Positions 1,328 through 19,885 of a stretch of 20,059 nucleotides of DNA are shown one piece after another; position 1 is the first letter of the stretch; every line of letters starts with the position of its first letter. The notes below the pieces were generated by a model, which did not search any database, had not been told where the DNA came from, and saw only the letters and a list, made by a program, of their open reading frames with translations. The translations under genes and the position numbers were made by a program. This DNA comes from a virus: IMG/VR virus record IMGVR_UViG_3300010153_000173, positions 1 through 20,059 of that record; one strand, given 5' to 3'.

Positions 1328-1776
1328 TGCTGACAACATCATTAATGTGCTTGGCTCTCAACATATATCATGAGGCTAAAAATCAAAGTTTCATAGGGCA
1401 AGTTGCAGTTGCACAAGTTGTCATGAATAGAGTAAATGATACAAGGTATCCCAATACAGTTTGTGAGGTAGTCAAACAAGGCTTAACTTACAAATGGAAA
1501 CCATCATTCCCTATCAAAAATAAATGCCAATTTAGTTGGTACTGTGATGGCAAGAGTGACAAACCTAAACAAGGTAAGGCATGGGAAGATGCTAAACATG
1601 TTGCCAATGGTGTTTATAATGAGCATCTATCTGACTTTGTTGAGGGGGCAACACATTACCATGCTGACTATGTCAATCCTAGTTGGGCTGAAACTAAAAC
1701 ATATGTAATGAGAATTGATGACCACATATTTTATAGGTGGGACATTGAGGAAAATAAAAACTACCTATACGACTAG
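1327..1776 (+). CDS. SleB-like cell wall hydrolase (endolysin)
   Basis: This 149-residue protein matches the SleB/CwlJ cell-wall hydrolase family (Hydrolase_2), used by many phages as an endolysin against peptidoglycan. Visible hallmarks are the N-terminal NIYHEA with the likely catalytic Glu16, the following helix ending VVMNRV (residues 32-36), the R-YPNTVCEVV segment (40-49), CQFSW-C (67-73), and a late ATHYHADYVNPSW block (about 108-120). No signal peptide is present, so release would need a holin; the two-helix protein at 575-772 is a candidate. GAGGAGG precedes the ATG, which overlaps the preceding stop. The TAG stop (1774-1776) is itself part of a 24-base palindrome. Confidence 0.9.
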   Translation: MLTTSLMCLALNIYHEAKNQSFIGQVAVAQVVMNRVNDTRYPNTVCEVVKQGLTYKWKPSFPIKNKCQFSWYCDGKSDKPKQGKAWEDAKHVANGVYNEHLSDFVEGATHYHADYVNPSWAETKTYVMRIDDHIFYRWDIEENKNYLYD

Positions 1777-1796
1777 AAGTTAAATTAAACTTTTAG
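1773..1796 (+). repeat. Palindrome family copy 1 (CTAGAAGTT N6 AACTTTTAG)
   Basis: This is an inverted repeat of two 9-base arms with a six-base AT-only centre. The TAG stop of the endolysin gene is positions 2-4 of the element. A 20-base stretch (1773-1792) is identical to copy 2 at 7863-7882. The placement relative to the gene end is the same as copy 4 at the end of the giant gene. Confidence 0.75.
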
Positions 1797-1881
1797 ATAA
1801 TTACCTACCTTAACAGAACCAAATATACACAACAGTCCTTTCTGAGGGCATCGTAAGTTCAACTATAAAAGGAAAAAGGTA

Positions 1882-2022
1882 ATGAAAAAATCTATTAATA
1901 AAGATAAGAAAAAGTTTTTACGTTTAATTTGTTTAACTGAAAATGAAAAGAGAATTATGCAAAAATATAAATGCACTAATCTAGCAATAAATAAATTATT
2001 CTTAAAAAGAGTTAATAGATAA
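1882..2022 (+). CDS. Very small Lys-rich protein (46 aa)
   Basis: The frame from ATG 1882 to TAA 2020-2022 encodes 46 residues, beginning MKKSINKDKKKFLRL. It is preceded by a good ribosome binding site (AAAGG and AAAAAGG in 1868-1879) at suitable spacing. The product is very basic, with the segment LTENEKRIMQKYKC that could form a helix, and it may be a small nucleic-acid-binding or anti-host protein; this is speculation. It lies alone between the palindrome at 1773 and the terminator at 2033. Its AT-rich composition and short length make a chance frame possible, but the clean ribosome binding site favours a real gene. Confidence 0.5.
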   Translation: MKKSINKDKKKFLRLICLTENEKRIMQKYKCTNLAINKLFLKRVNR

Positions 2023-2059
2023 AAAAAAGAATGAGGGCGGTATTGGAGTTACCGCCCTC
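2021..2059 (-). terminator. Strong intrinsic terminator for the minus-strand operon
   Basis: GAGGGCGGTA (2033-2042) and TACCGCCCTC (2050-2059) form a perfect 10-bp GC-rich stem with a seven-base loop. Read on the minus strand the stem is followed by a T-rich tract complementary to the A-run at 2021-2028, the classic rho-independent form. It lies about 70 bases past the end of the minus-strand gene at 2128, so it would end the replication operon before it runs into the + strand lysis region. In the + direction no T-run follows. Confidence 0.85.
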
Positions 2060-2127
2060 TTGCGTAAGAAGTGAGATGCTGAGAAAACAATCACTTTCAC
2101 AAAACATAATCCCACCTTTTAATTAAG

Positions 2128-2592
2128 TCAACTATTTCCCCAACTTTCATAAAAGTTTTTTATTGGCTTAACAATCCCACCTATATTATTTTCAATAAAT
2201 TCAATATCAATACGACTTAAATCCTTATCAGTTATTATTTTTAACAGAGTGTCGTAAACCTTAGATCCACCTGCTGATCTAGACGATCGTAAGCATTCAA
2301 AAACTTTTGTTCTTAAAATCTCGTTGTCATTGCTATTGGTGTCGTGGCTAGCGATAATTCTTGGATTGTAATTGGATGCCCTTATCCCCACCATACCTGA
2401 TCTATTGTAGTCCATTTGGAGTTTATCTAATATCATGAAGTGATCTAGCGATATACTATCATGGAGTAGCAACTTGTCTAAACAAGTCTGATCAACCACT
2501 CGCATCCTTACTTTATTTGATTTGCCTATAAACTCAGGCTTAACTGTTTTATTTTCAAAATGGTAAGTCTTCGTCATCTTCTTCTTTTTCAT
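2128..2592 (-). CDS. Hypothetical protein, possibly DUF6456-like
   Basis: This protein is about 154 residues from ATG 2592; a second ATG lies at 2577. Both starts overlap the 3' end of the primase-helicase gene. It opens with a basic stretch (MKKKKMTK), and the body has the pattern D-x3-L-x3-L (DQTCLDKLLLHDSISLDHFMILDKLQMDY), a variable middle, then VYDTLLKIITDKDLSRIDI and a C-terminal helix ending FYESWG. This order resembles DUF6456-type proteins of alphaproteobacteria and their phages, which may bind DNA, but I hold that loosely. It is the last gene of the minus-strand operon, before the terminator at 2033-2059. A 19-base stretch (2333-2351) is repeated exactly in the nuclease gene at 7883. 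Confidence 0.7.
   Translation of the reverse strand: MKKKKMTKTYHFENKTVKPEFIGKSNKVRMRVVDQTCLDKLLLHDSISLDHFMILDKLQMDYNRSGMVGIRASNYNPRIIASHDTNSNDNEILRTKVFECLRSSRSAGGSKVYDTLLKIITDKDLSRIDIEFIENNIGGIVKPIKNFYESWGNS
2333..2351. repeat. 19-base exact direct repeat, copy A
   Basis: CTATTGGTGTCGTGGCTAG on the + strand is repeated exactly at 8153-8171. Here it lies in the minus-strand gene at 2128-2592, coding for ASHDTNS. Confidence 0.75.
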
Positions 2593-4384
2593 AATAACTT
2601 CTAGGCGGAGATTTTGCTTTTGGCATATTGTATCCGCTTGGTGCAAGCATGTCCTCAGCATGAGAACTTTTGTCTACACTATTATACCTAGATGTTATTT
2701 TGTCAAAAGACAAGTCACAATCCCCAATAGAACCCACCCAAGAAAATCTACATTTCCAAATCATTATCTGACTTATGCTTGACGTTGATGGCTTAGGTCT
2801 ATGAACAGTTAGTCCTATGTCAGCTTTAGCAAACCAACTGGCTGAACCTGATATATCGTATCCTTTTGGTGGTGGAACAGTCCCGTCATCTTTCCTCATC
2901 ATTTTTGTTGGATGAGCAACAAACCAAATATGTATGCCATGTGCCTGAGCAAAAACTCTCAGGGCAGTCAACATATCTGAAATCCAATCTGTCTCAGAAG
3001 TTAAATTATCTTTTGAGATATAATTGTATGGATCAATTACAACTCCCCTAACTCCATGCCTCATTACCGCAACTTTCATTCTTTCCATAATGCTATCTAA
3101 CGTAGATAGCGAGCCATCTGCCTGATACAAAAATGAAAAATGATCTTGCACAAATTTCTTCCCCTCAATCAAATCTTCCTTATTTAATTTTGGTGTAATG
3201 CCATCAAAAAATGGCTTGCCTACATGCTTACTTATTAACTTGGCTATATGTATTCTAGGCTCATTTTCAAAAGAACATATTCCAAATTTCCATCCTTTTT
3301 CTTTTGCTATGTTTACCATTATCTGATCAACAAACTCTGACTTACCGCTTGATGGATGCCCCGTAACAACTGTTAGCTGACCCTCGACAATCGTATATAG
3401 CGGGTCTACTTCCTCATATCCCGTTGATGCCCCTGAGCCTACACCTTTCTCATATATCTCATCGACTTCCTCATAAAAATGCGATGCATCGTAAAGACCT
3501 GAAACGGGATACGGCTTAGGATTTGATGCAATCTCATCTAACTTTGTTTTGCCGTGCTTTACTAAAACTTCATTAGCATCCTTGCAGTCCTCAGGATAAT
3601 CTAATTTGTAACATCTGTCCTTACCAACTCTTCTAGCTATCTCTTCAGCCATTGCCTGACCTGACTTGTCGTTATCCATAGCTATAACAACCTTGTCACA
3701 CAGTTCTAATTTCTTCTTGGCATTCCAAATAAACTTAAATTTCCCGTCTTCATGTGCATCTATCTTGCCATCAACCACTTTCATTACTGCTCCATGTGGT
3801 ATCGAAACAACAGATTTGTACCCCGCCTCGATAAATGAAAGTGCATCCATTTCCCCCTCGCAAATAATAATCCAATCGTTAGTCTCAACATTATCTATAT
3901 TGAAAAAATTAACCGCTGATCCCTGAGAAGAAAATCCCTTACTTGGAAACGACCTCAGCTTTGCAAATTCAGTATTGCCCTTGTTGACATACGGAAAAAC
4001 CAAACAAGGCATCTCTTTTTTCTCTGATGCAATGTAATGTTTTTTAAATTTTACCCCTACTATTTTTGCGGTATTTTCTGATATCCCTCTGCTTTTTAAA
4101 TAATCTATACTGCCATTCTCAACTGATAAATCATCCCATCTTTTGTCTACAGCATGAACCACATTGCTCCTCCTTATCAGCCTAAAGTTATTATCTCCAA
4201 TTTTTACAGACCCGTTTTGATTGCAATGCCAACAATTATAAATAACAAGACTGCTATCTACTTTTAATGACATTGTTTTCTGATCTTTTTTCTTTCGCTT
4301 ATGCGAACAAAAGGGGCAGTTAACCTTGTGTTGACCGCTACCTAATCTGAGGGCATTAGCCCTGATGTTTGATGCTAGTTCCAT
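2555..4384 (-). CDS. T7 gp4-like DNA primase-helicase
   Basis: The 609-residue fused primase-helicase unwinds phage DNA and makes primers at the fork. Domains in order: a zinc-binding domain with C23-X2-C26 and C51-X2-C54; a primase TOPRIM fold with CEGEMDAL (Glu176) and MDNDKSG (Asp237, Asp239); and a DnaB/RecA-type helicase domain with Walker A GHPSSGKS (342-349), Walker B VVID (448-451) and a downstream WFVAHP motif. It is somewhat longer than T7 gp4 (566 aa). The C terminus ends EEDDEDLPF, an acidic tip like that of single-stranded DNA-binding proteins. The start at 4384 is fixed by AAGGAG in the TGCGTAAGGAGAAA leader. A sigma70-like promoter (4409-4437) lies just upstream. Confidence 0.95.
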   Translation of the reverse strand: MELASNIRANALRLGSGQHKVNCPFCSHKRKKKDQKTMSLKVDSSLVIYNCWHCNQNGSVKIGDNNFRLIRRSNVVHAVDKRWDDLSVENGSIDYLKSRGISENTAKIVGVKFKKHYIASEKKEMPCLVFPYVNKGNTEFAKLRSFPSKGFSSQGSAVNFFNIDNVETNDWIIICEGEMDALSFIEAGYKSVVSIPHGAVMKVVDGKIDAHEDGKFKFIWNAKKKLELCDKVVIAMDNDKSGQAMAEEIARRVGKDRCYKLDYPEDCKDANEVLVKHGKTKLDEIASNPKPYPVSGLYDASHFYEEVDEIYEKGVGSGASTGYEEVDPLYTIVEGQLTVVTGHPSSGKSEFVDQIMVNIAKEKGWKFGICSFENEPRIHIAKLISKHVGKPFFDGITPKLNKEDLIEGKKFVQDHFSFLYQADGSLSTLDSIMERMKVAVMRHGVRGVVIDPYNYISKDNLTSETDWISDMLTALRVFAQAHGIHIWFVAHPTKMMRKDDGTVPPPKGYDISGSASWFAKADIGLTVHRPKPSTSSISQIMIWKCRFSWVGSIGDCDLSFDKITSRYNSVDKSSHAEDMLAPSGYNMPKAKSPPRSYYEKEEDDEDLPF

Positions 4385-4386
4385 GT

Positions 4387-4400
4387 TTTCTCCTTACGCA
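4387..4400 (-). promoter_or_regulatory. Conserved leader/RBS element TGCGTAAGGAGAAA
   Basis: This 14-base sequence on the minus strand contains the AAGGAG ribosome binding site of the primase-helicase gene. It is identical to 5243-5256 ahead of the exonuclease gene on the + strand. Each lies 6-8 bases after a -10-like box, so each transcript would begin at or near this element. Confidence 0.65.
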
Positions 4401-4408
4401 ATTTGAAA

Positions 4409-4437
4409 AAGATAGTGCCATAAAAAATAATCGTCAA
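4409..4437 (-). promoter_or_regulatory. Sigma70-like promoter of the primase-helicase gene
   Basis: On the minus strand, TTGACG (complement of 4432-4437) and TATCTT (complement of 4409-4414) are separated by exactly 17 bases. The -35 matches consensus at five of six positions, and the -10 at four of six. The predicted start point falls about 20 bases before the primase ATG, giving a very short leader. The same architecture appears at 5208-5236 for the opposite operon. Confidence 0.65.
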
Positions 4438-4514
4438 TGAAAAAAAATATTATTTTTATAAGTTTGGGAACTAAATACTTTCTTTCTCATACGCCCCATA
4501 CTTGCCCATGTACT

Positions 4515-4538
4515 CCAAAAGTTAATTTTAACTTCTAC
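4515..4538 (-). repeat. Palindrome family copy 3
   Basis: The 16-base core AAGTTAATTTTAACTT (4519-4534) is identical to the core of copy 5 (16444-16459), and the reverse complement of the core of copy 4 (8995-9010). It lies between the primase promoter and the ACTAGT cluster. Confidence 0.75.
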
Positions 4539-4618
4539 TAGTATTACTAGTTATAACTAGTATATATATAACTAGTTTATATTATATATATTTATAACTA
4601 GTTCTTGTTATAACTAGT
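4537..4618. repeat. Cluster of six ACTAGT sites in an AT-rich palindromic tract
   Basis: ACTAGT occurs at 4537, 4546, 4556, 4571, 4597 and 4613, six times in 82 bases, embedded in TATAA-type sequence so that larger palindromes such as CTAGTTATAACTAG form. The tract is almost pure A/T apart from these hexamers. It lies just upstream of the primase promoter and overlaps the end of the gene at 4614. Repeated short sites in an easily melted tract next to a primase gene suggest a replication origin or a regulator-binding array; this is inference. Confidence 0.6.
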
Positions 4619-4940
4619 AGGGGGAACTTCTATTTTGAATTGTCTTCTTCAACTTCTCGCCCAAGTATCTAGCAACGATAGGTTTACTGTTTGCAATTTC
4701 AAATAAATATTTTTTCAGTCTACTCGCATTTAACTCTGCCATATCGCAAACCTGATCATAGTCATCGCTGATAATCCACTCAGCCACAGATAGCTTTTCT
4801 TTTGCAGTCCCTAAATACAAATCAGAAATCGCTTGGCACATCACATGTTTCCAGAGTCGACACTCTGACATGAGTTCTTGGTCTTTCTCTATCCAATCCC
4901 CAATATATATACTTTTGTTTAACTTGTCTGTCGTTAGCAT
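4614..4940 (-). CDS. Small conserved phage protein of replication region
   Basis: From ATG 4940 (AAGGA ribosome binding site on the minus strand) this gene encodes about 108 residues; a later ATG at 4871 is possible, and the open frame extends up to 4979. The central pattern ECRLWKHVMCQAISDL, then AEWIISDDYDQVCDMAELNASRLKKYL, resembles a small helical protein seen in many phages of proteobacteria beside replication genes; its function is unknown to me. It overlaps the RusA-like gene by 119 bases (or about 50 with the later start), an unusually long overlap. Its last codons lie inside the ACTAGT cluster. Confidence 0.7.
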   Translation of the reverse strand: MLTTDKLNKSIYIGDWIEKDQELMSECRLWKHVMCQAISDLYLGTAKEKLSVAEWIISDDYDQVCDMAELNASRLKKYLFEIANSKPIVARYLGEKLKKTIQNRSSPY

Positions 4941-5214: not shown

Positions 5215-5236
5215 AAATTGGTATTCCTATTATCTA
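5208..5236 (+). promoter_or_regulatory. Sigma70-like promoter of the recombination operon
   Basis: TTGACA (5208-5213) is a perfect -35 box. After a 17-base spacer comes TATCTA (5231-5236), followed by TAAAA. The weak -10 resembles TATCTT of the primase promoter. The predicted start falls at about 5243, in the leader element TGCGTAAGGAGAAA. The -35 box overlaps the first codon of the divergent RusA-like gene, so the two transcription units may interfere with each other. Confidence 0.65.
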
Positions 5237-7434: not shown

Positions 7435-7665
7435 ATGGAAGAAGAAAATAAAATTGCTAATGTCCATTTTGAAGCAGTCAAAACATCCATGATGCAAGAC
7501 AAAAATGGAACGAACATACGTTTAACAATACATCCAAATGATGTCCCTGAGGCTTTGCACAAAGATTGGATTGGCTCAAGATACATGGTTGCTATGGTTA
7601 AGCTTAATGAAGATGGCACACCTGATGAAAGGCAAGAAAATGACAAAGAAAAAGTCGGAGAATAA
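7435..7665 (+). CDS. Conserved small phage protein (76 aa)
   Basis: This 76-residue protein carries the pattern VHFEAVKTSMMQDKNGTNIRLTIHPNDVPEAL, followed by WIGSRYMVAMVKLNEDGTPD. The pattern is familiar from small proteins in the recombination modules of proteobacterial phages, but I know of no assigned function. It reads as a compact beta-rich domain with no cysteines or membrane segments. AAGGGAGAG precedes the start. The 3' end overlaps the HTH gene by 26 bases. Confidence 0.75.
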   Translation: MEEENKIANVHFEAVKTSMMQDKNGTNIRLTIHPNDVPEALHKDWIGSRYMVAMVKLNEDGTPDERQENDKEKVGE

Positions 7666-7873
7666 TGCTGATATTCAATCAGACTATTTGACTTTAGATG
7701 GTGTTGCTAATTATCTTTCTATAAGTCGAATGACATTATATAACATAATCAATGATGAGAACTCTACTTTCCCAAAAAGTTTTGAAATAATTAAGTCTGA
7801 AAAGAACAGACCTAAAAGACTTTATAAGAAATCAGACGTAATTGCTTGGTTAGAAAAAAGTCCTAGAAGTTAA
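7640..7873 (+). CDS. AlpA/excisionase-like HTH DNA-binding protein
   Basis: Starting at ATG 7640 the protein is 77 residues; the open frame extends upstream to 7538, but that part is the shadow of the previous gene. It has a MerR/AlpA-type winged helix-turn-helix: YLTLDGVANYLSISRMTLYNIIN, then FPKSFEII-KSEK-RPKRLYKKSDVIAWLEK. Such proteins act as excisionases or small transcription regulators. The family often recognises short inverted or direct sites, so it is a candidate binder of the palindrome family, one copy of which covers its own stop codon (7863-7886). AAAGG lies upstream of the start. Confidence 0.8.
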   Translation: MTKKKSENNADIQSDYLTLDGVANYLSISRMTLYNIINDENSTFPKSFEIIKSEKNRPKRLYKKSDVIAWLEKSPRS

Positions 7874-7886
7874 ATTAAACTTATGG
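7863..7886 (+). repeat. Palindrome family copy 2 (overlaps a start codon)
   Basis: The left arm CTAGAAGTT is intact. The right arm reads AACTTATGG because the ATG of the next gene (7883) sits in it. The element covers the stop of the HTH gene (7871-7873) and the whole space where a ribosome binding site for the nuclease gene would lie. It shares 20 identical bases with copy 1. Confidence 0.75.
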
Positions 7887-8329
7887 CTAGGTCTTTATAT
7901 GAAACTTCACAAGATAGAAGATCAGAAAAACAAGTTCTAGACTATGTCTCAAAATGTTGGGGCATAGTCTATCACAAACTTCCAATGTCCTATAAGTTAG
8001 ATTATTCTATGTATCGATCAGAATTGCTGGTTGGCTGGGCAGAAGTAAAATGCAGAACACATAATTTTGGAACATTCCCCACATACATAATATCACTAGC
8101 AAAAGTTTTAGAGGCTAGGAGATTAGGAAAAGAAACAAATACAACTCCAATACTATTGGTGTCGTGGCTAGATGTATTAGCTTATTTGGATTTTTTTTCC
8201 CCTTTCACCATCAAGCAAGGTGGTAGATCAGATAGAAACGATTGGCAAGATCAGGAGCCAATGGCACACTTTGAATTAAAATATTTTAAAAGAGTAGGAG
8301 AAATAAATGAGACTAGCAGATGGGTTTGA
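7883..8329 (+). CDS. PD-(D/E)XK-like nuclease (small, phage type)
   Basis: The 148-residue protein has a likely PD-(D/E)XK core: Glu15 in RSEKQVLDYV, Asp40 in YKLDYSM, then GWAEVKCR with Glu54 and Lys56, followed by a helix rich in Ala, Leu and Arg and a strand TTPILLVSW. This resembles small phage nucleases of the VRR-NUC or T7 endonuclease I type, but the exact family is unclear. The ATG at 7883 has no Shine-Dalgarno sequence: the preceding bases form palindrome copy 2. Starting at a later Met would remove the conserved Glu15 region. The gene overlaps the next one by 23 bases and contains a 19-base repeat (8153-8171). Confidence 0.65.
   Translation: MARSLYETSQDRRSEKQVLDYVSKCWGIVYHKLPMSYKLDYSMYRSELLVGWAEVKCRTHNFGTFPTYIISLAKVLEARRLGKETNTTPILLVSWLDVLAYLDFFSPFTIKQGGRSDRNDWQDQEPMAHFELKYFKRVGEINETSRWV
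8153..8171. repeat. 19-base exact direct repeat, copy B
   Basis: This is the second copy of the 19-base sequence at 2333-2351, in the same orientation on the + strand. Here it codes for LLVSWL in the + strand PD-(D/E)XK-like nuclease, so the two copies are read in opposite directions and different frames by their genes and cannot reflect shared protein sequence. Confidence 0.75.
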
Positions 8330-8979: not shown

Positions 8980-8999
8980 AACTTTTAGACCTAAAAGTT
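8980..8999 (-). terminator. AT-rich hairpin after the giant gene, possible terminator
   Basis: AACTTTTAG (8980-8988) and CTAAAAGTT (8991-8999) form a perfect 9-bp stem with a two-base spacer. Its right arm is also the left arm of palindrome copy 4, so two alternative hairpins share one arm. On the minus strand this lies just past the giant gene. It is AT-rich and lacks a long T-run, so termination is only a possibility; it may equally be an operator half-site array. Confidence 0.4.
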
Positions 9000-9014
9000 A
9001 AAATTAACTTCTAG
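8991..9014 (-). repeat. Palindrome family copy 4 (end of giant gene)
   Basis: CTAAAAGTT AAAATT AACTTCTAG is the best-preserved 24-base copy besides copy 1. Read with the giant gene, the TAG stop (9013-9011) is positions 2-4 of the element, exactly as at the end of the endolysin gene. Confidence 0.75.
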
Positions 9015-12000
9015 CCTGCCTTTTTATATCCCGCAGACCTCATAAGAATAAGACCCATTTGCTGAAGCTCGTTTATCTTATCTCTTCTAATTCTTATAAT
9101 TTTTCTTTTTGTATTCTCAGGTATTTGTGGATTTCTTTCAATCTCTTTTATCTGCCTTTGCATCCTATTTCTTGCATTATCTATGGCTTTCATTCTTCCA
9201 ACTATACTTATTTGTTTCTTATTATTCTCGTAGATAGATGCGACTGCTTCTTTATCCCCAGACCTCTTTGCCATATCTAGTTGTGCTATTAACGTAAATA
9301 GGTCTTGTCTGTTATCTAAATAATTACCCGTGTCTGCTCTTGGAGACGGAGTTGTTATAACCTTTCTTGCTAAAGGTATACTGTTTATTAGACTGCCTTC
9401 AAAGTCTCCTTGTAGTGCATCGTATATGTCTACGGGAGCTTCAAGGCTTCTCATCGCAAATCTTCCTGCCCCACCCGTAAAAGTTCCAAACCAATACTCT
9501 ATAATGTCAGGCGACATATCTATTAGTCCGCCTTTTATATCGTCTCCACCAGTTAAGCTATTAACACTAGAAGCTATTGTCTTAGCTATAGAACTAGTAT
9601 TAGACCAATATTGAGAACTGTTTGCTTTTGCTACAGATGCGTAGGTAGGCGATTCTTTGTAAATAGGATCGCCTTTGTAATCCTCATTTATTCCTACTGA
9701 TATAAATGGGTCAAATACTGTAGGGGCTGCGAAGTTTAAGAAGTTATCATAAGCACCTATAGGACTAATGCTTTCAACAGTTGTTCCAACGATACTCCTC
9801 ATTGCTTCGCCCGGGGTGTATTCGCCTCTGCCCATCCTACTCAAACTTCTACCAAAATTAACTGCCATATTAAGACCATAAGCCATTGGGATTGTTATAT
9901 GCTTGTCGCCTGTAAGACCTAAAGTTGGTACAATTATATTGTGTTCAAGTATATGTCTTGGTATCTCATCATAATCACTAATACCATCTTCGTCTTCATC
10001 TCCAGAAAATAGTCCGTTAATAGTATCTTGCATAATGCCGTACACCATTAATCCCGCCCACATTTTTCTTACTTTGGATGATCTAGTAGCCGCGTTAACA
10101 AGTGCCATAGAACCTTGTAAAGAAGCATTATAAAATAAATACATGCTATTCATTACTGCTTTATTCTCTCCGCCTTTCGCAAAGTTAACAGTGATGTTCC
10201 TCGCTGCCAACGCAGCTCTTGACTTAGACACGCCTCTATCACGAAGTGATTTATACAAAGATACCCTGACACCATTCTCAACTGCAGTATTTGCATTATC
10301 TAACATAGATAGCAGTGATCTAGCATTCTTACCTACAAATTGATTTCTATTTAATCCTAATTTTTGTTTAATACCACTATCAGATATATCTCCTATTATA
10401 TTATCAATATTATCTATCTGATCTTTAACATCTCCCATTTGGTTAGTGGCATTCTTTCCACCAGCAGAAACAAACTCTTTATATATATCTGTCCATTTGT
10501 TCACTGCATTTTTATCAAATAATAATTTACCAATACCTATAACTGCTGAAGGAGTTCCTTTCATTACTTCTTTAGTAAAACCCTTTTCGTCATACTCTTG
10601 TGCATTTATGCCTGCCGTCTCAAGGTCTCTTGCAAAGTTTGGAATAACAAATGACGGGTTATAGGTTGTATTTACCGCAGATAGAAATCTGTTAAACTTT
10701 CCCATGTATCTAAATATTGCGGCATTTTGTTGTGGTGTTAAAGCGCCGTTCATAGACTTAGCTATTCTTGGGTCTTTTATAAGAAAATCTCTCTCTACTC
10801 CATTTTCTTTATATGTAAAAATATTTTCTGGCTTTACTCCTCTTTGATTTCTTTGCTGACTGTTTAGATTTGTTATTTCTTCAGCAATCTCTTTCATTTC
10901 TTTTGCAAGAGAGTCGTTTATAGCCATACTGCCATCAGGTTGTTCTTCAAGGCCCTCAACAAGCCTACCAAAAGATTGTCCTACTTTATTTCTTTCGCCT
11001 CTGTCTATAGAGTTATTATTTTGTGCCATCAATGATGCAACAATATTTTCAGCATAATCGTTTATGCCTGCTCTACCTCTTGCTGATTTATCTTCCCTAC
11101 CTTTTGCTCCAAAAAAGTTAGTAAATACTCTCTTCCTTCCGTACTGACTATCTAATATAGACTCAACTTCTATGTCGCTGTCGCCTTGAAGCGGTACATA
11201 AGAACCATCAGTGTAAATAATAATAGGAGGTTGTCTGTTAGGGTCTCTTGCATCTGCCGGTAATAAACCTGCCTCTATACGTCTATCTATAGTGTCTTCA
11301 TTTATTTTTCTAGCAAACTCTCTTATTTCTTCAAATTTAGCAATTTCTGTTTTATCTAAACTATTATACCAATCAATAATTTGATCAGCCTCAGTGCCAG
11401 TCATTCCTGATCCTGTGACTGTTTTGCCTCCAGTTTTTTGCTTTATATATGCGTTTCTTTGTCTTGCATGAAATGCGTATAAAACGGCATCTGTCATAGC
11501 TAATTTTTTACCAACATAATCTTTTTCAATACTGTCGTAAAATCCAGTAGAGCCTGCTGAACCTTTTATGTCTCTTAATTCTTGTATTTTCTCTTCACTA
11601 ATATTTAATGTGTCCATTACATTAATCATAGGCTCGAATAACTCTTCTTGTACTTTAGTAACCTTATCTCCTACTATTCCTGAATAGTTAGCCTCTTGCA
11701 TATAAGAGTCCATAGCATCTGTTATAGTAAAGCCATTCTTTCTTAACTCGTCTATCATAGACCCAACGGGTAACATGGCATCTTGAAAATATGTAAGTAT
11801 TCTCTGGGCTCTTGCCTTAGCAACATCTTCTTCATAAAAAACACCCAAACCTTTAGCTATGAATTTAGACAAATTATCATAAGTCATATTCTGAGCTTTT
11901 TGATTCATGTCTTGAACAAACTCTTCTGAGTTAGGGCTTGTTGTTTGTGCTGGGTTAGAGCTAATAGTAGAATATTTAAACTTATCTTTTATTGCTGTAT

Positions 12001-15000
12001 TCTGTGGCTTGGTAAAAAAAGTTCTAACTTGATATAAAGACCTCCACTCATATTCTCTTGGAGCAAAAGCTTGGGCAACGTTATCAGCAAAACTCTTTGG
12101 AGAAACTTTCTTTACTGATTTAAATCCTTTTGGCTCAAATTTTAATGAAAGAACAAGAGTTCTTTCTTGAGGCTTTATCTCTTGAGGTCTAGGATTTTGT
12201 CTTGTCCAAGGCTTCCCATATTTGTCTTTTGACATAGAAGAGCCGTCTGGAAATCTGCCATTTGCATTAGGTATCATCTTCACAGGCAACGCTAAAGGAG
12301 CATTGTCCCACTCAATTCTAATGTCATTATTGCCTACACCACCATCAGGAAAAACTCTTATACCATAATCTTTAGGTCTTCTTATAGAGCCATCTTTATA
12401 AAGACCCTCTGATATATCTCTGTTGTATTTTCTGTATTCTTCCATTGTATCAAATAGTAAATTTAATGGATCACCATCAATAACAGTGTGGTATTTTAGT
12501 ATACTTTCAGCGTGAGTAGGCAGCTTAATGCCATCCTCATTAAATCTTTCTCCAAAAATATGTTGATAACCATATCCACCATATTTACCTTTTCTATTTT
12601 CTAAAGGAAAATGATCTCCTTGAGGCACAACAACTATTTCATTTACGCCGTTCATAGTCTTTGCATAACCATATTGATTTGGATTTCCATATGGATAAGA
12701 TGGTTTATATTTATATCCGCCTAATCCTGCAGTTTTTCTGCCTAAAAATCTTTGAGGCAGTCTTATTGGATAGTTAGGGTCATCTAAGGCTCTTGGATTT
12801 CCTGCTATTTGAGAATATTTATAATCTAAACTAGCTTCTTCAAGTCTAGAAGCTTCTTCTGCAGGTAAATTTTCATAAGGATCAAAGTCAGGGTCTACTG
12901 GGAGAGCTTCTTCTTTTTGTTCTCTTTCAATAATTGAATCATCGCCTTCGCGAAGTTGTCCATCTCCTCTTCCGGCACTGATTCTACTATAGACTCTAGT
13001 TCGCTCTGCTTCGGGGAGTGTATCTGAGATTTCTCCATTTTCAAATCCTTTCAATTTTAATAAATATATTGCTCCATCAAGATAGTCATTGTCATCGCCT
13101 GTGCCCTTTGAAACACCCTGCTTCTCAAAAAACCTCTTCTCTGCGTACCATAACAATGCTTGAAAATCTGCATTAGTAATTTTAATTCCAGTATCTGCTT
13201 CTAATATAGCTCTTGCTCTATTTACTATTTCTCGCATAGCGGCTCTATCAGCCGCGCCTCTTGGAGCTTCTTGCTCTTGCGTTTGTGTATTATTAAAATG
13301 TGTTTCAGTAGCTAATTGTAATTCTGATTTGTCAGGCAGTTTAGTGCCAAATCTCATATTGCCTGCTTGGTATCCTTCACTTTCAAATTCTTTTCTAAAA
13401 GATTGATACTCCTTAACAAATTGTTCAGAAAAAAGTAAAGCATTATTTGCATTAGTTATATCCATACTCAATGCTTCTTGAGTTCTGTCTATTAGCTCTC
13501 TATCTAATTCTGTTAATTCATTATCAGTAGGCTCTTCGTTTTGTTTTGCGCTTTGTTTTCTTCCATCAAGAGCCAATAAAACTCTTTCTAGGTTTCTGTC
13601 TAATGTTTTTTGTGTAGGTGGTTTTTTAAATACGTCACCAGTCAATCTGTTTATGGCTCTCATAAACCATATATCCATTGTCAAGTTATCGTAATTTCCT
13701 CGTAAGTTTTGATAAAAGCCATGTCCTATCTTAGGCCCTATTACAAAAGCGCCCGTAACTGGCGTGTTGGCTGATTCTCCACCTGATATCGTAATTTTTA
13801 ATTCTTTTACAAATTGATTTTGTTTTAATTGACTAGGAGTTGTTTCCATGTCCATAAAATCTATAAATTCTTGAGTTGATACTCCATTATCTTTCATTGC
13901 ATTATAAAATAAAAATGCTTTTTTCATTGCAGATGATCTCTTGCCCCAGCCTTTTTTAGGAAATCTGCCGTTTGTAGATGCTTTCCATGCAGCATATTGT
14001 TCTTCAGCATGTTTAAAATTAAATAATACGCCCATGCCATTTGATGTAACTGATAAAGCAAAATCAAAAGCTAAGTTTGCATCTTTATCTGTTAATATTT
14101 CAGGATGTATAATTGATACGGCTTTTTTAGCAGCTTTTAACGTTTTGTCATACCAGCCAATGGCATTATCGCCTTGCTCTAAAGCTTTTTCAGCTTCAGC
14201 CGCCATCATAATGGCTACGTTTTCCCTAGCTTCTTCTCTTTCTACGGCTTTTTTTGAATGAATATCAAATACTATACCGCCTCTTTTAATTTGATGATTG
14301 GCAAGAGCATCTAATTTAAGAACTTTATTAGCTACAGCTATATTAGCTTTTGTAGGATCAGTTTGATACTCAGGTTGAGGTAGGATATTTCCTTTTTTAT
14401 CATATTCATTAACAATAGTGCTATCAATTAATGGTCTACCATTTGGATCAAGGGTAGATTTAGCTCTTGCTATAGATGAATACTTTTTATCTATTTTTTG
14501 CTCGGCAGAACCTCTATCCCTTGCCTTTGAAAATTCTTCAGCAAGTTTTCGTATATCTCTTCCACTGATTGCTCTGGCTTCACTACTGTAAGTACCGGCA
14601 TTTTTGAGTCCTTCGACTCCTTCTGGTGTTTGGATTTCATTAAACTCTCCTAAATCAAATATTGCTAACTGATTACCTTCTTCAGCAACATAAAGAGCCT
14701 CATTGAGGTCTTCTATAACCATAGTTGCATCTAAATAATATATTCCATCTGATGCCCATCCACCAGCATATAGTTTTTTACCAGATATTTCTGTCATTAA
14801 TTTTAAGTTTTTAGCAAATTGCATTACATCATCAAGAGTAAGATTTTCTGCTCTTATAACCATTTCAGCTTCTTTTACTGGGGCCACAGCAAAGCCTTTG
14901 TTAGGAACTTCTAATGTATCTGGGTCTACAGTAAATCCATCAGGATTATCTCTTATAAAACCTAACAATCTATTTTCTAATGATTGTGGCTTATTTGATA

Positions 15001-18000
15001 TTTTAGAGTATTTAAATTGTTCTTTGCCTTCAAACACAGGGTTTTTAGCTAGTACAAGTGGTCCAACTTGTATAACACGCTCCGCTGAAACAACTGGTTG
15101 TGTTGTTGTTCTATCGTAAAAATAAGAATGTCTTTCAGGATCAAAGCCAACTTGTATAAATGTAGGATCATTCATAGCGGCTTGAGCTTCTGCAAAAGAA
15201 TTATCAGGAGTTGTTTGAACTAAATCACCAGAAATTGTAGCATAAGGAGATTTTGTCATTCTTTTAGCTTTAGTAATATCTCCTGTTTCTCTAAATTCAG
15301 CACCAAATGGCTTTCTTCTAGCTATATCTAATCCTTTATTTTGATCTGCTTCAGACATTGTAAAGTCTGCATTTGTTATTATAGCAGTAGATTCATGTGA
15401 TATAGCTTTCCCTGCCATATTATGTATAGTTGGAACCCATGTGCCTTTTGTTGTGTAAGCTGGAATATCCAATCTTAATTTTATTCTTGTTCCTTCAGGT
15501 ATTTCTTGTAATTTGTTTATAATTGCTTTTTTCTTTTCTCCAGCTAAAGCCTCTCTCATTTCATTAATTGTTGCAGGAGCAGGAACAGTTTCATAAGGAA
15601 CTATAGGCTTTACATTATTAACTAACTTATCATATTGTGCGTAGTTTATTTTGCCTTGATATAATTTTTCAGAGGCTTCAGTTAGGGCATCTATTCTTGT
15701 TGTTACATCTTTAAATGATTGTTTTATTCTTTCTGTGTTACCTAGCTCAGGTCTTATGTACCCGGCAGCTATACCAGCGGTAGAGTATTTTGTTAAACTT
15801 CTAGCAGACTTTGGAACAGATTGTTTTCTTTTGATTTCAACTTCTGTTTTAGTTGAAAGAATGTTTGCAAATATTTGATTTGACTCAGTAAATCCAGCAT
15901 CATAATTGCTAGTAAATATTGCTTTTAAGAATCTGATTATCTTATCAAATATACTTTTTGGCTTTGCAACAACTTTTAATTTACCATCTGCGTAGTCACG
16001 AAACATTTCTGCTACGGCTTCTTCTTGTATTCCTTCTTCAGTCAATCCTTGGTCTTTATAAAGTGCGCTTGCTCTTTCCATATAAGAATATTCTTTTTTA
16101 ACAAACTTACCTTTTTCTAATCCAACATACTTCCTCTTTATGGCCGCCTTAACGAGGATGTCATATTCTGCATCTGTAAACGCTCCCATGTTTTTAAGAG
16201 CGTGTATAATCTCATGGTTCATAACGCCAGAAAGTTTTTTTGTTAACTGAGCCTCTGTAAGATTAGGATCATACAAATCCATCGCCAGTCCAATAATACG
16301 TTTTCCTTCAGGGGTAGAGCCAAAATAACCTTCTAACGAAGCATCTTCTTTGCCATATTGGTTAGAAATAATAGATTCGCCTTCTAATCTAATATCGCCA
16401 AGACCCATATCATTTAATTGTTGCTTTAAATTATTAAGCACAGAAGTTAATTTTAACTTATAGGCATCTGTATATGGAGATTTTGAGGCTTGATCTGATG
16501 TTCTTTTAGATGTGTAGTCAGGAATAACGTCTTCAGATTTTACCTGCTCTGTTTTTTCTGTCTTAGCTTTCTCTGAGGCCGACTCTAATGCATCGGCTTC
16601 ATTTTTTAGTGCCATGTATTCTATAGCTAAATTATCTATCTCTTCTTCTGACATAGCTTTATTCTGCAGGTTCAGTATTTCTTTACCTCTTTGCTTAATA
16701 GCTTCTGACTTGGCTTTAATGTCTAACGCTCGTTGATCGGCCTTTACATATCTACCTTTTTTATCTTTTAAAACAACTCCATCTTCTTCCAATAACTTTA
16801 AATAAGTATCAACATCTGTATTAGTTATTTTAATTGATCCACCAAAACTATCGTTCAATGCTTTTCTTAAAGTATTTTTATTTAACTTGCCATTAACAGC
16901 AAGGTCTTCCACTATTATTGAAGCTTCTTTGTTTTTTGAATCCACTTCTTGATCTGTCATTTGGTTTTCTTGACCAGATGGAGAGTAATAAATATCTTTT
17001 TCTTGTTCAGTTAATATTGGTTTTTGTTTTGCTGTCTCTCGTCTTGCAGCTGAAGCGCCTATAGTATTTTCTAATTCATCAATAGATACATCTGCGCTTG
17101 GATCAGCTCCACGCATTTGTCTACGTTGTGCAATTCTTAAAGCCTCGTCTTTAGGTAAGTTTTGCAATGAAATATTATTTAATGGCTGAGTGGTTTCTCT
17201 AGCGGCGGCCATAGTTGCTGATGCACTTTTCTCTCCTCTAGTCCTTAAGTCCTCTATAGCTCTTGGTGCTATAGACTTTTCTATCTTTTGACTAGGCCCT
17301 TGAAGGAGACGTTGCTCTTGTGTTTCAGGTATGTCTTTCTTAGGTCCTTCTAATAGCAAAGTAGGCTTCAAAGACTCGGCATAATTTTCATAATTCTTTT
17401 GACGTTGTGTAGCTTCTCTATTTAAGTTTTTAAGGTCTTCGTCTAGTTGCATTCCTTTTTTATAAAACTTATTTAACTGCCTACCTCTAACGCTATCTAC
17501 AATTAAGTTTAAAGCAGCACCTGCACCACCACCGTATACAGCATCATCGTAAGCACTTTGTCCTACCTCAAGGTCAGGATTATATAAACCTTGCTCAATC
17601 AAATCTTGAACAATTCCAGCACCTAGTTCTTGCGCCCCCTCTGCAATACCAGCACCAAAGGATCTTTTTAATTTACCACCTATCGTCATTAATGCTTTAT
17701 CTATATCGGCTTTAGGAACCTTTTTGAGTATTCTCATTGTAGTGCCAAGTGTTCTGAACATAGGAGCAAAAGGCAATGCCTCGGTTGTTCCTAACAGTGC
17801 ACTTAAACCAACTGCATCTCTTTTAGTTTGTTCATCAATTTCACCACCATTCTCAATAAAATTAGCCATTCTATTTAATTGATCAGATGTTTGTAAAGCT
17901 GCACCTTGCGTTGCCATCGTTCCTAAAGCAGATGCTCCAGCTACTCTTGCTCCAGCGCCTAATAAAGAGGCTCCTTTAGCCACAAATGTTCCGGGAATAA

Positions 18001-18406
18001 AGAAAGAAAGCAATGAACCAGCAGCTTGACCTGATTTACTTGATATACTTTCATTCATATCAAAAGTATCTTGTAAGCCTAACGCTGCTTCATTAGACCA
18101 GTTTTGAGCAGCTTTACCAAAATCAGTAGAGCCTATATCATAGCCACCAACATATTCTCCTAATGCAGATATACCTCCGGGAATTTGAGCTAGACTAGAT
18201 AAAAATCCTCCAGCAGTAGACTTACCAAAAGTTAGTAATCCGCCTTCATCTTCTTCGGGCGCAGCGGGGACTTCTTGATTATAATTTCCATCAGTAGAAA
18301 TATAGTTTTGAATCTTATCAAATTCTTCTTGATTAGGTGTTTCACCTTCTATTTCAAAGTCATATAGCTTCCCAGATAAAGGACTAATCGTAGAGTACAT
18401 TCCCAT
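9011..18406 (-). CDS. Giant polyvalent virion protein (3131 aa) with metallopeptidase motif and LPD38-like C terminus
   Basis: At 9.4 kb this gene fills almost half the window. Visible modules: a Gly/Ala-rich hydrophobic N-terminal region (about 50-175), as in injected virion proteins; a zinc metallopeptidase motif NHEIIH (His731, Glu732, His735) with a downstream EEAVAE (Glu800) as possible third ligand; a module with GFDPERHSYFYDR (to 1099) and VIQVGPLVLAK, recurrent in phage polyvalent proteins; a module around 1150-1300; a helical part with LTMDIWFMRAINRLTG; a segment with YGYQHIFGERF (His1949) that might be a PBECR-type nuclease; and a large C-terminal LPD38-like domain with NPSFVIPNFARDLE (from 2583), an acidic Ca-site-like DEDEDGISDYDE (2803-2814) and a coiled coil at the end. 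Six Y-S linkers separate the modules. The protein is probably packaged and injected with the DNA. The start directly follows the previous stop (TAAATG). Confidence 0.9.
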   Translation of the reverse strand: MGMYSTISPLSGKLYDFEIEGETPNQEEFDKIQNYISTDGNYNQEVPAAPEEDEGGLLTFGKSTAGGFLSSLAQIPGGISALGEYVGGYDIGSTDFGKAAQNWSNEAALGLQDTFDMNESISSKSGQAAGSLLSFFIPGTFVAKGASLLGAGARVAGASALGTMATQGAALQTSDQLNRMANFIENGGEIDEQTKRDAVGLSALLGTTEALPFAPMFRTLGTTMRILKKVPKADIDKALMTIGGKLKRSFGAGIAEGAQELGAGIVQDLIEQGLYNPDLEVGQSAYDDAVYGGGAGAALNLIVDSVRGRQLNKFYKKGMQLDEDLKNLNREATQRQKNYENYAESLKPTLLLEGPKKDIPETQEQRLLQGPSQKIEKSIAPRAIEDLRTRGEKSASATMAAARETTQPLNNISLQNLPKDEALRIAQRRQMRGADPSADVSIDELENTIGASAARRETAKQKPILTEQEKDIYYSPSGQENQMTDQEVDSKNKEASIIVEDLAVNGKLNKNTLRKALNDSFGGSIKITNTDVDTYLKLLEEDGVVLKDKKGRYVKADQRALDIKAKSEAIKQRGKEILNLQNKAMSEEEIDNLAIEYMALKNEADALESASEKAKTEKTEQVKSEDVIPDYTSKRTSDQASKSPYTDAYKLKLTSVLNNLKQQLNDMGLGDIRLEGESIISNQYGKEDASLEGYFGSTPEGKRIIGLAMDLYDPNLTEAQLTKKLSGVMNHEIIHALKNMGAFTDAEYDILVKAAIKRKYVGLEKGKFVKKEYSYMERASALYKDQGLTEEGIQEEAVAEMFRDYADGKLKVVAKPKSIFDKIIRFLKAIFTSNYDAGFTESNQIFANILSTKTEVEIKRKQSVPKSARSLTKYSTAGIAAGYIRPELGNTERIKQSFKDVTTRIDALTEASEKLYQGKINYAQYDKLVNNVKPIVPYETVPAPATINEMREALAGEKKKAIINKLQEIPEGTRIKLRLDIPAYTTKGTWVPTIHNMAGKAISHESTAIITNADFTMSEADQNKGLDIARRKPFGAEFRETGDITKAKRMTKSPYATISGDLVQTTPDNSFAEAQAAMNDPTFIQVGFDPERHSYFYDRTTTQPVVSAERVIQVGPLVLAKNPVFEGKEQFKYSKISNKPQSLENRLLGFIRDNPDGFTVDPDTLEVPNKGFAVAPVKEAEMVIRAENLTLDDVMQFAKNLKLMTEISGKKLYAGGWASDGIYYLDATMVIEDLNEALYVAEEGNQLAIFDLGEFNEIQTPEGVEGLKNAGTYSSEARAISGRDIRKLAEEFSKARDRGSAEQKIDKKYSSIARAKSTLDPNGRPLIDSTIVNEYDKKGNILPQPEYQTDPTKANIAVANKVLKLDALANHQIKRGGIVFDIHSKKAVEREEARENVAIMMAAEAEKALEQGDNAIGWYDKTLKAAKKAVSIIHPEILTDKDANLAFDFALSVTSNGMGVLFNFKHAEEQYAAWKASTNGRFPKKGWGKRSSAMKKAFLFYNAMKDNGVSTQEFIDFMDMETTPSQLKQNQFVKELKITISGGESANTPVTGAFVIGPKIGHGFYQNLRGNYDNLTMDIWFMRAINRLTGDVFKKPPTQKTLDRNLERVLLALDGRKQSAKQNEEPTDNELTELDRELIDRTQEALSMDITNANNALLFSEQFVKEYQSFRKEFESEGYQAGNMRFGTKLPDKSELQLATETHFNNTQTQEQEAPRGAADRAAMREIVNRARAILEADTGIKITNADFQALLWYAEKRFFEKQGVSKGTGDDNDYLDGAIYLLKLKGFENGEISDTLPEAERTRVYSRISAGRGDGQLREGDDSIIEREQKEEALPVDPDFDPYENLPAEEASRLEEASLDYKYSQIAGNPRALDDPNYPIRLPQRFLGRKTAGLGGYKYKPSYPYGNPNQYGYAKTMNGVNEIVVVPQGDHFPLENRKGKYGGYGYQHIFGERFNEDGIKLPTHAESILKYHTVIDGDPLNLLFDTMEEYRKYNRDISEGLYKDGSIRRPKDYGIRVFPDGGVGNNDIRIEWDNAPLALPVKMIPNANGRFPDGSSMSKDKYGKPWTRQNPRPQEIKPQERTLVLSLKFEPKGFKSVKKVSPKSFADNVAQAFAPREYEWRSLYQVRTFFTKPQNTAIKDKFKYSTISSNPAQTTSPNSEEFVQDMNQKAQNMTYDNLSKFIAKGLGVFYEEDVAKARAQRILTYFQDAMLPVGSMIDELRKNGFTITDAMDSYMQEANYSGIVGDKVTKVQEELFEPMINVMDTLNISEEKIQELRDIKGSAGSTGFYDSIEKDYVGKKLAMTDAVLYAFHARQRNAYIKQKTGGKTVTGSGMTGTEADQIIDWYNSLDKTEIAKFEEIREFARKINEDTIDRRIEAGLLPADARDPNRQPPIIIYTDGSYVPLQGDSDIEVESILDSQYGRKRVFTNFFGAKGREDKSARGRAGINDYAENIVASLMAQNNNSIDRGERNKVGQSFGRLVEGLEEQPDGSMAINDSLAKEMKEIAEEITNLNSQQRNQRGVKPENIFTYKENGVERDFLIKDPRIAKSMNGALTPQQNAAIFRYMGKFNRFLSAVNTTYNPSFVIPNFARDLETAGINAQEYDEKGFTKEVMKGTPSAVIGIGKLLFDKNAVNKWTDIYKEFVSAGGKNATNQMGDVKDQIDNIDNIIGDISDSGIKQKLGLNRNQFVGKNARSLLSMLDNANTAVENGVRVSLYKSLRDRGVSKSRAALAARNITVNFAKGGENKAVMNSMYLFYNASLQGSMALVNAATRSSKVRKMWAGLMVYGIMQDTINGLFSGDEDEDGISDYDEIPRHILEHNIIVPTLGLTGDKHITIPMAYGLNMAVNFGRSLSRMGRGEYTPGEAMRSIVGTTVESISPIGAYDNFLNFAAPTVFDPFISVGINEDYKGDPIYKESPTYASVAKANSSQYWSNTSSIAKTIASSVNSLTGGDDIKGGLIDMSPDIIEYWFGTFTGGAGRFAMRSLEAPVDIYDALQGDFEGSLINSIPLARKVITTPSPRADTGNYLDNRQDLFTLIAQLDMAKRSGDKEAVASIYENNKKQISIVGRMKAIDNARNRMQRQIKEIERNPQIPENTKRKIIRIRRDKINELQQMGLILMRSAGYKKAG
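16440..16463 (-). repeat. Palindrome family copy 5 (inside giant gene)
   Basis: The 16-base core AAGTTAATTTTAACTT (16444-16459) matches copy 3 exactly and is the reverse complement of copy 4's core. It lies within coding sequence for YKLKLTSVL, so it is maintained despite coding constraint or arose by chance from Leu/Lys codons. Confidence 0.6.
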
Positions 18407-19885
18407 TTAAGATGCCTTTTGTGTTGACGGTAACTTTCCTACATTAATTGAAGGCCTTGGTCTTATCTTAGCCTCTCCAAATAATTGACTTTTTTGAAAT
18501 TCTAAATCTTTTATAGATTCTCTTAACGCTGCTATTTCATTTTTCTGTTCTTCGCTTGGAGAGTTATACGAATCTTTCATAATATCTGAAATTAATTTTT
18601 CTTTAGATGATATAGAAGTGCTAAAGCTATTCAAAGCTTGTATAGCACCAGATCGAGTTAATTTTCCTTTAGCTCCAGCGGCTATTCTAGCTTGTTGTAT
18701 CTTGCTGCGCGCGTTAAGGATGTCGGTAATACCTTCTTCGTATCTTTTATTAGCTGCATTAAAAGCATCTAGACCCTGCATTCCACCTTCACCAATAGCA
18801 CCAGCTAATGTTGGCTTCTCAGATGCAAGTATGCCTAAACCAGCTTGAGCAAGTGCCATGTATTTATCAAAGTTTCTGCTCTTATCTAATCCAGCCTGTC
18901 TTTTAAGAAGCTCTTCTTCTATTGATAACGTTTTATTTTCATCGCCAGAAGTTAAATTTAACTTTGGCTGATTTTTATTTTCTGTTTGATTTATTATTGC
19001 ATCATTTAAACCTTGATCAATACCTTCAGCGTCTATTGTTTCTTCTTTTTCTTTCTCATTATCTAAAGTTGCATCAGTTGCAGGACTAGATAATGCTCCT
19101 AACATCCCGAATGGATTTCTTTTTTCAATTCTTCCCATAACAGTTTCTAAATCTGGATTTAATGCCTCTGATATGTATGAGCCAAATTTAGATAAATAAC
19201 TTTCTTCATCAGGCAATCCATCCTGCGCTCTTATAACCCCACCTTCTGCAAATCTTCTCGCCTCTGTCCCAAAAGGTTCATTTATTCTTGCGCTTGTAAA
19301 ATATTTATCTCTTCCATTCCTTAACACTGCTGGTTCTGGTCTAGCCATACCTTTACCACCAAAACCTATTTGTGTTGGAGGGCCTCTATATCCGGGTCTA
19401 GGAAACGCAGGCATAGGAATGGTAGGTCTAGGAACAATTCCGGTCTGTATATTCCCCATATTATTATTTAAATCAATATTAAACTTTTGCTCTGCTTCTT
19501 GTTGCACACCATCTAGATAAGGATCTATCTCTTGACCCATACTGTTTCTTATCTCATTACCAAACTGCATTAATCCACCAGAAGCCATCTTCATAGGCGC
19601 ACTTGTGCCTACACCTTCTGACACTGCACTCTGAGGAGCCATTGCTTCAGGCATACCCATCATGCCTTGTTGAGGCACACCTGCTGCAGCAACGGCTTCT
19701 TCTGCTACTGTAGGTTGGTTTTGTGCTTGTCTAGCTTCTAAGTCACCCTTAACTCTTTTTCTTCTGTTTAGTTCAGATAAAACAAGAAACTGTGGTGTAG
19801 TTCCACTAGGTTGTTGCATTTCTTTTACAAGTTGATCTTGAGAGAAATTTTTTAAGTCATCTTGAACTTGTAATAGATTCATCAT
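18407..19885 (-). CDS. Virion-associated protein (492 aa), likely internal/ejection protein
   Basis: The N terminus (MMNLLQVQDDLKNFSQDQLVKEM, then QFLVLSELNRRKRVK, to about residue 50) is a conserved signature of a virion protein from uncultured marine and proteobacterial short-tailed phages. It is followed by a Gln/Met/Ala/Pro-rich low-complexity stretch, two short glycine motifs of the type ASGGLMQFG and AEGGVIRAQDGLP, and a C-terminal half with MALAQAGLGILASEKPTLAGAIGEGG and a long helical region. Such proteins are usually internal virion or ejection components. The start overlaps the previous stop by one base (TAATG), and it is directly joined to the giant gene, which suggests assembly or ejection together. 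Palindrome copy 6 lies inside it. Confidence 0.75.
   Translation of the reverse strand: MMNLLQVQDDLKNFSQDQLVKEMQQPSGTTPQFLVLSELNRRKRVKGDLEARQAQNQPTVAEEAVAAAGVPQQGMMGMPEAMAPQSAVSEGVGTSAPMKMASGGLMQFGNEIRNSMGQEIDPYLDGVQQEAEQKFNIDLNNNMGNIQTGIVPRPTIPMPAFPRPGYRGPPTQIGFGGKGMARPEPAVLRNGRDKYFTSARINEPFGTEARRFAEGGVIRAQDGLPDEESYLSKFGSYISEALNPDLETVMGRIEKRNPFGMLGALSSPATDATLDNEKEKEETIDAEGIDQGLNDAIINQTENKNQPKLNLTSGDENKTLSIEEELLKRQAGLDKSRNFDKYMALAQAGLGILASEKPTLAGAIGEGGMQGLDAFNAANKRYEEGITDILNARSKIQQARIAAGAKGKLTRSGAIQALNSFSTSISSKEKLISDIMKDSYNSPSEEQKNEIAALRESIKDLEFQKSQLFGEAKIRPRPSINVGKLPSTQKAS
18945..18968 (-). repeat. Palindrome family copy 6 (perfect 16-base core)
   Basis: AAGTTAAATTTAACTT (18949-18964) is a perfect 16-base palindrome, the most symmetric core of the six. 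It lies within the 492-residue virion gene (coding for KLNLTSG). Confidence 0.6.

Follow-up and report, generated by a model that had tools for sequence, protein, structure and literature searches.

Dispersed operator sets are known from a few temperate phages, in which they silence the prophage. In phage P1, a single repressor (c1) has many operators scattered over the genome. The hairpin promoters of phage N4 are few, short inverted repeats upstream of early genes that have an odd loop and are direction specific, and they go together with a giant virion protein. Stoperators, which together with SPBRE/MrpR of SPbeta come closest in function to the sites described here, are located in short intergenic gaps. 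In cluster A mycobacteriophages (for example L5, and TipsytheTRex with its immunity repressor) they form a set of many near-identical repressor-binding sites at which the repressor acts on elongation; each is 13 bp long, asymmetric and bound by a monomer, and the phages are temperate (PMC9283540). The SPBRE of the Bacillus prophage SPbeta is a repeated 15-bp intergenic element in promoter regions of the prophage, found in silico long before its binder, the recombinase-fold repressor MrpR (PMC10516654).

Here we describe a palindrome set of the dispersed-operator kind. Like stoperators, its members are many, near-identical and spread genome-wide beyond chance, mainly in gaps and at gene borders; unlike stoperators, they are symmetric and some lie inside genes. 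The set is distinguished from the stoperator family by its symmetry, by the fact that an integrase was not found, and by its coordinated lineage-specific spellings. The likeness to the c1 operators lies in many scattered sites for one protein, although those of P1 are asymmetric and belong to a temperate phage-plasmid. Literature searches found no description of these palindromic sites. Comparative sequence analysis makes it probable that they are operators of one symmetric, dimeric, sequence-specific protein, most probably phage-encoded, which would control transcription in a stoperator-like manner.

The window (the whole stretch of DNA that was analysed, 20,059 nucleotides long) contains six exact copies of a 16-bp core, AAGTT-N6-AACTT, starting at 1777, 4519, 7867, 8995, 16444 and 18949, with WAWWTW as the inner six bases. 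Among the 5-mer inverted repeats of the window, compared at all spacings from 0 to 12, this one comes first, and 200 dinucleotide shuffles of the window gave a mean of 0.09 copies and a maximum of 1. An earlier, sequence-only reading of this DNA had reported six copies in a number beyond chance; all six are present where it placed them, with the core exact in 6/6, and the composition-matched shuffles bear out the excess. Its 24-bp consensus, CTARAAGTT-N6-AACTTYTAG, was drawn too wide: it fits copies 1 and 4 only, copy 5 misses it by three bases and copy 6 by four, and copies 2 and 3 also deviate. It was right that copy 6 is symmetric and had mislabelled the identical pairs, as the core of copy 1 equals that of copy 3, copy 2 equals copy 5, and copy 4 is the reverse complement of copies 2 and 5. 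The family is sharply bounded, because the window has no copies one or two mismatches away from AAGTTWAWWTWAACTT. Shuffle comparisons of other genomes gave 9 sites against 0.23 in G001, 12 against 0.01 in G005, and 21 against 0.00 in the cultured phage MinM2. The sites of the window and the features around them are as follows.

1777..1792, no strand: palindromic site 1, AAGTTAAATTAAACTT, exact match; adjoins the TAG stop of a SleB-type cell-wall hydrolase gene (1327-1776)
4409..4437, minus strand: sigma-70-like promoter of the primase gene, TTGACG-N17-TATCTT, by consensus match; downstream of site 2 and kept through classes A, A2 and B
4519..4534, no strand: palindromic site 2, AAGTTAATTTTAACTT, exact match; in an intergenic region on the upstream side of the primase/helicase gene (minus strand), 134 bp from its start
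4536..4620, no strand: AT-rich intergenic block with repeated ACTAGTTATAACTAGT palindromes, from the sequence of classes A and B; adjoins site 2, upstream of the primase gene
7640..7873, plus strand: HTH_17 (AlpA/excisionase-like) gene, Pfam PF12728, E 6.4e-7
7867..7882, no strand: palindromic site 3, AAGTTAAATTAAACTT, exact match; includes the stop codon (TAA) of the HTH_17 gene and touches the ATG of the PDDEXK_14 gene
7883..8329, plus strand: PDDEXK_14 putative endonuclease gene, Pfam PF24579, E 5.9e-36; its ATG adjoins site 3
8995..9010, no strand: palindromic site 4, AAGTTAAAATTAACTT, exact match; adjoins the TAG with which the giant minus-strand gene ends
9011..18406, minus strand: gene of a giant 3131-aa protein with an LPD38 domain (polyvalent-protein type), Pfam PF18857, E 2.8e-34; contains site 5
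16444..16459, no strand: palindromic site 5, AAGTTAATTTTAACTT, exact match; in frame within the giant gene, coding for KLKLTS
18407..19885, minus strand: gene of a 492-aa protein, an ORF without family match; contains site 6
18949..18964, no strand: palindromic site 6, AAGTTAAATTTAACTT, exact match; in frame within the 492-aa gene, coding for KLNLTS

The flanking TAG of copies 1 and 4 is, as the sequence-only reading had noticed, the stop codon of the SleB hydrolase gene and of the giant gene, respectively. At 7867-7885 the ATG of the PDDEXK_14 gene lies directly on the palindrome, which leaves a Shine-Dalgarno sequence no space, and the upstream TAA is inside the palindrome. Matches in the sigma-70 and terminator scans were no more frequent than in shuffles, and promoter calls are therefore weak. 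The block at 4536-4620 is a probable replication origin, to judge from its sequence, with iterons of its own (ACTAGTTATAACTAGT).

A stretch near-identical to the window is included in G001 (IMGVR_UViG_3300025102_000056), a 47.6-kb contig. The genes carried are those for TerL, portal, capsid, a MoxR-type AAA and DUF2201 VWA pair, primase/helicase, RusA, a PDDEXK exonuclease, HTH_17, PDDEXK_14, a DUF3310 gene and the 3131-aa LPD38 protein; gene calls are mechanical ORFs, and genes without a family match are named by position or resemblance. Over both modules (primase, exonuclease, VWA and TerL) the closest cultured phage is Synechococcus phage MinM2 (OQ594354; 69% GC), and the Planktothrix phages Pag-Yong1 and Pra-JY27 score identically to it. 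The three records, each of 65,014 bp, give identical matches and were deposited under different hosts; at 69% GC, their host assignments may deserve checking. The giant proteins (window 9011-18406; MinM2 L316:15886-24297) match PHROG families without known function, and the MinM2 gene (2803 aa) is annotated as RelA/SpoT.

Across related genomes the sites are positionally conserved, fixed in sequence and selected at the DNA level. They are found again at matching positions across about 150 related viral loci (L005-L156, partial metagenomic contigs collected via the primase and the exonuclease), which is the retention in relatives that the sequence-only reading had named as its check. AAGTT-6-AACTT is the commonest 5-mer inverted repeat of the primase-set relatives, with 210 copies in 947 kb, and the whole records G001, G002, G003, G004, G005 and G016 hold 9, 10, 7, 6, 12 and 11 copies. 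About 5-12 sites per genome (21-37 in MinM2) occupy fixed early and replication gene borders and the giant-gene region. Orthologous places include the TerS/early-operon region (beside TerS), where most lineages have a site, at the AAA/VWA junction, and after p81, p83 or SleB, at early-operon stop codons (the equivalent of site 1 is occupied in L007, L022 and L031). The others are upstream of the primase gene; at the HTH_17/PDDEXK_14 junction, where classes A, A2, B, C and D each have a site in their own spelling; at the stop (3' end) of the giant gene, where the equivalent of site 4 is occupied in G002, G014 and G009; and inside the giant and 492-aa genes. A pattern scan of viral contigs was little informative, the matches listed being mostly single-copy contigs.

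Seven of the nine sites in G001 lie outside ORFs, where 8.5% of positions are found (p 1e-6), and sites are likewise enriched there in G002 (p 5.5e-8) and G005 (p 7e-7). Within the giant gene, the codons of site 5 (AAG TTA AAA TTA ACT TCT) do not differ between four homologues with protein identities of 52-70%, against the same codon kept in only 20% of other conserved residues nearby (P ~ 5.5e-5 for the six-codon identity). Six codons at site 6 are identical in homologues of the 492-aa gene (P ~ 4e-4), part of these homologues having been found through the motif.

Outside the 16-mer, the flank in lineage A is a weak YAR on each side: position -2 is A in 96% of half-sites, position -3 is T or C, and position -1 is A or G in 80%. 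The binding unit would measure 16 bp, or about 20 bp with flanks. Sites exactly abut a stop codon in 4/9 cases in G001 and 5/10 in G002, and in no case in G005, which belongs to lineage F and has an A-tract flank. Because the lineage A flank reads YAR, a TAA or TAG stop can supply the outer bases of the putative operator, and the overlap with stop codons looks like sequence economy and not like a termination signal. In class A the gap between site and start codon ranges from 0 nt to 14 nt or beyond, and one site is found where genes converge. At some operon ends GC-rich hairpins follow 3' of the palindrome (after the AAA gene in L060-L065; after p83/SleB in L007, L025 and L030), and these are possibly intrinsic terminators.

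The version of the sites differs from lineage to lineage: AAGTTAAWWTTAACTT, AAGTTCANNTGAACTT, GTTAAYRTTAAC, TTTACGTAAA and AAAGTTCANNTGCACTTT, with GGTTCAGNCTGAACC in MinM2. Classes were assigned by inspecting sites and afterwards checked by counts; their spellings are AAGTTAAWWTTAACTT for A (lineage logo) and, from lineage logos and further records, AAAWGTTAACGTTAACWTTT for B, AAGTTAANNTTAACTT for C, AAAASTTTACGTAAASTTTT for D, AAAAGTTCAATTGAACTTTT for E, AAAAGTTCANNTGAACTTTT for F and AAAGTTCANNTGCACTTT for Z. The change can be followed at single places: upstream of the primase gene, AAGTTAAAATTAACTT in lineage A stands at the same spot as ATGTTAAKGTTAACAT in lineage B, both halves having changed. 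Mixing of classes within a contig is almost absent, as class A is without B- or D-type sites and class D has almost only D-type sites. On the primase tree the nine class labels need 8 changes, the minimum possible, against a mean of 16 for shuffled labels. The sites of a genome thus change together, as expected for a single trans-acting factor; and because versions are lineage-specific and hardly ever combined in one contig, we read the sites as operators of one dimeric protein with drifting specificity. For SPBRE, PMC10516654 describes no such coordinated, lineage-wide series of spellings. A likeness to parS of the E/F and D-type spellings, seen by eye, was dropped because the spacing is off by one base in each half. 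One contig, L038, has a class B-like HTH_17 module and site (641-656) within an otherwise class G-like backbone; it is a possible recombinant of a kind that could show which protein the site class follows, although too short for that.

The factor could also come from the host, a host transcription factor binding the sites and lineage differences mirroring different hosts. The GC content of the classes (0.37 against 0.47) suggests that the hosts probably do differ, and a phage binder is so far a candidate only. Yet the versions drift within narrow phage clades (the primase tree nests class B together with A and A2), and 5-37 copies at early borders and in virion-type genes would be unusual for a host operator; we regard a host regulator as doubtful.

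MinM2 is without AAGTT-type sites and instead has 21 exact GGTTCA-N3-TGAACC palindromes (0.00 in shuffles) and 37 palindromes at most two mismatches from GGTTCAGNCTGAACC, none of which appear among the annotated features of its record (L316/L317). Many of them fill intercistronic gaps of the early operon, where one layout recurs several times: 3 nt separate a stop codon from the palindrome, and 21 or 22 nt the palindrome from a start codon. A comparable palindrome set was found neither in the terminase-related HTVC023P, HTVC027P, 023Pt_psg01, DSL-LC04 and CRP-901 (at most 50 kb each) nor in the exonuclease-related phage Baldr (at most 50 kb read). Because relatives by terminase only show nothing comparable, the set belongs with the early/replication module.

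The MinM2 copies also bear on whether the palindromes act as RNA, as intercistronic hairpins for processing, attenuation or termination. Many sites do lie 3' of stop codons, some followed by GC-rich hairpins, and for most of the copies in the window folding is stronger than in shuffled sequence (z from -2.4 to -4.0, but -1.0 for site 5). The stems are 5 bp and AT-rich, however, copies occur within genes, and the sequence is fixed within a genome without co-variation: none of 20 imperfect MinM2 copies has matching changes in both halves. Such one-sided changes break RNA pairing and would be tolerable for a DNA-binding dimer. An RNA element is accordingly very unlikely, and the 3'-end RNA hairpin that the sequence-only reading had listed among possible roles is disfavoured by these one-sided variants and by the invariant sequence.

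Slighter still is the chance that a virion RNA polymerase uses the palindromes as hairpin promoters, as it does in N4, the giant protein being that polymerase. The exonuclease has N4 homologues, VWA homologues occur in records of N4-sized podoviruses, the giant protein is of virion type, and 21-22 nt separate palindrome and start in MinM2. On the other side, the N4 sites are few, odd-looped and direction specific, several class A sites touch either a start codon or the end of a convergent gene, and the vRNAP profile phrog_2206, which is matched at full length in N4, matched 0/7 family records and gave only two short weak matches in MinM2. No RNA-polymerase profile match was found for the giant protein of the window; a Pfam PF00940 search gave zero matches, with its controls equally silent.

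More serious is the case for DNA-organising or segregation sites (parS-, matS- or Noc-site-like), at which a dimer would bridge, condense, segregate or package the replicating genome. Neighbouring sites in the early half are separated by 1.1-3.3 kb, save for one gap of about 7.5 kb; some sites are found where genes converge or within virion-type genes; one is beside the probable origin, and in most classes one is near TerS. Yet the first 17.7 kb of G001, most of its structural-gene block, are free of sites, and expression control better fits the preference for intercistronic gaps, often in MinM2 with a fixed offset to the start codon. No ParA/ParB-type gene turned up among the proteins covered by a general family scan. 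We consider this role unlikely, though it is the chief rival of the operator reading. Among the roles that the sequence-only reading had listed, we favour that of operator for a regulator that binds DNA.

As binder that reading had proposed the AlpA-like HTH_17 protein encoded at 7640, which now appears doubtful. An iterative HMM and family search, which recovered HTH_17 in classes C and E where single-pass BLAST had missed it, found it in all classes except F; lineage F has the sharpest and most numerous sites, and the gene is not in G005 or G016, although these have 12 and 11 sites. Lineage D has HTH_17 in two subtypes, one of which has a recognition helix close to that of lineage A (RMSLYN), and both go with the same D-type site. 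Its absence from F and the sharing of one site type by the D subtypes rule HTH_17 out as a general binder unless it is replaced in F, and we give it little credence. In lineage F an N6/N4 DNA methylase and a DUF6378 gene take the place of the HTH_17/PDDEXK_14 pair (L284:5350-7165, equal to G005 25350-27165).

A better candidate, with HTH_17 as the second, though a tentative one that leans on predicted structure, is p221 (18612-19277 of G001, outside the window), the first larger early gene and a fast-evolving one. We still consider it less likely than not that p221 is the binder, with most of the remaining probability going to another phage protein or a host protein. HMM searches found it in every class, F included, among contigs reaching the region, and it directly adjoins sites in E, F and MinM2, where a probable ortholog lies beside MoxR (hhalign probability 69, E 4.5e-5). 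Its AF2 models (pLDDT 85 and 80) run from three helices through a beta-hairpin to a long C-terminal helix, and the C-terminal half is predicted to be winged-helix-like; the best PDB matches in Foldseek are PadR-family regulators, at non-significant scores (E 0.39 and 1.2, TM about 0.25). Tblastn of phage records and a sequence search of the PDB gave no match for p221. In its third helix the GTTAA classes (A, B and C) share L[AG][ED]KIA, D has PLDT, and the GTTCA classes (E, F and Z) share a K/QAQ-or-QAK variant. These variants parallel the site classes in a suggestive way, and the parallel is confounded because p221, TerS, HTH_17 and the motif share one phylogeny.

We infer, from the spellings and symmetry above, that a dimer binds the sites. 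Less certain is the effect on transcription, for which we suggest that sites between genes act as roadblocks and those close to early promoters as operators: a protein sitting in the gap from a stop codon to the ribosome-binding site that follows, or next to the divergent early region, would block or modulate RNA polymerase. The set would then act like mycobacteriophage stoperators, for example in shutting down or pacing early transcription in a lytic programme. In 16 related records, possibly incomplete, a search for tyrosine integrases (PF00589; serine integrases were outside it) gave no match, with controls positive in 14/14. Because an integrase was not found, pacing or shut-off of early transcription in lytic growth is the simplest use and a classical lysogeny-keeping use is unlikely; superinfection-type immunity is conceivable. 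HTH_3 matched in only 6/16 records, which argues against a universal classical repressor. Several points sit uneasily with phage-encoded operators: the palindrome is without direction, whereas stoperators are oriented; a host could supply the binder; and the distance from site to start codon in class A is inconstant. The most specific account, which we offer as a speculation, is that in an old, large and apparently lytic lineage of seawater and fresh water a phage-encoded dimer of an undescribed family, p221, brakes transcription in a stoperator-like way at early junctions, protein and sites changing specificity together so that every lineage has a code of its own.

The architecture that in temperate phages serves the prophage is found here in a widespread family without detectable integrase, from 36% to 69% GC and from marine contigs to freshwater cyanophage isolates. 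At least six spellings have swept the sites of a genome, and the family may therefore offer a natural series for how a regulator and its many sites change specificity together. The operator reading predicts an undescribed phage regulator, testable in cultured MinM2 and its near-identical records, and suggests that these phages have a switch or brake, so far undescribed, which acts phage-wide on gene expression.
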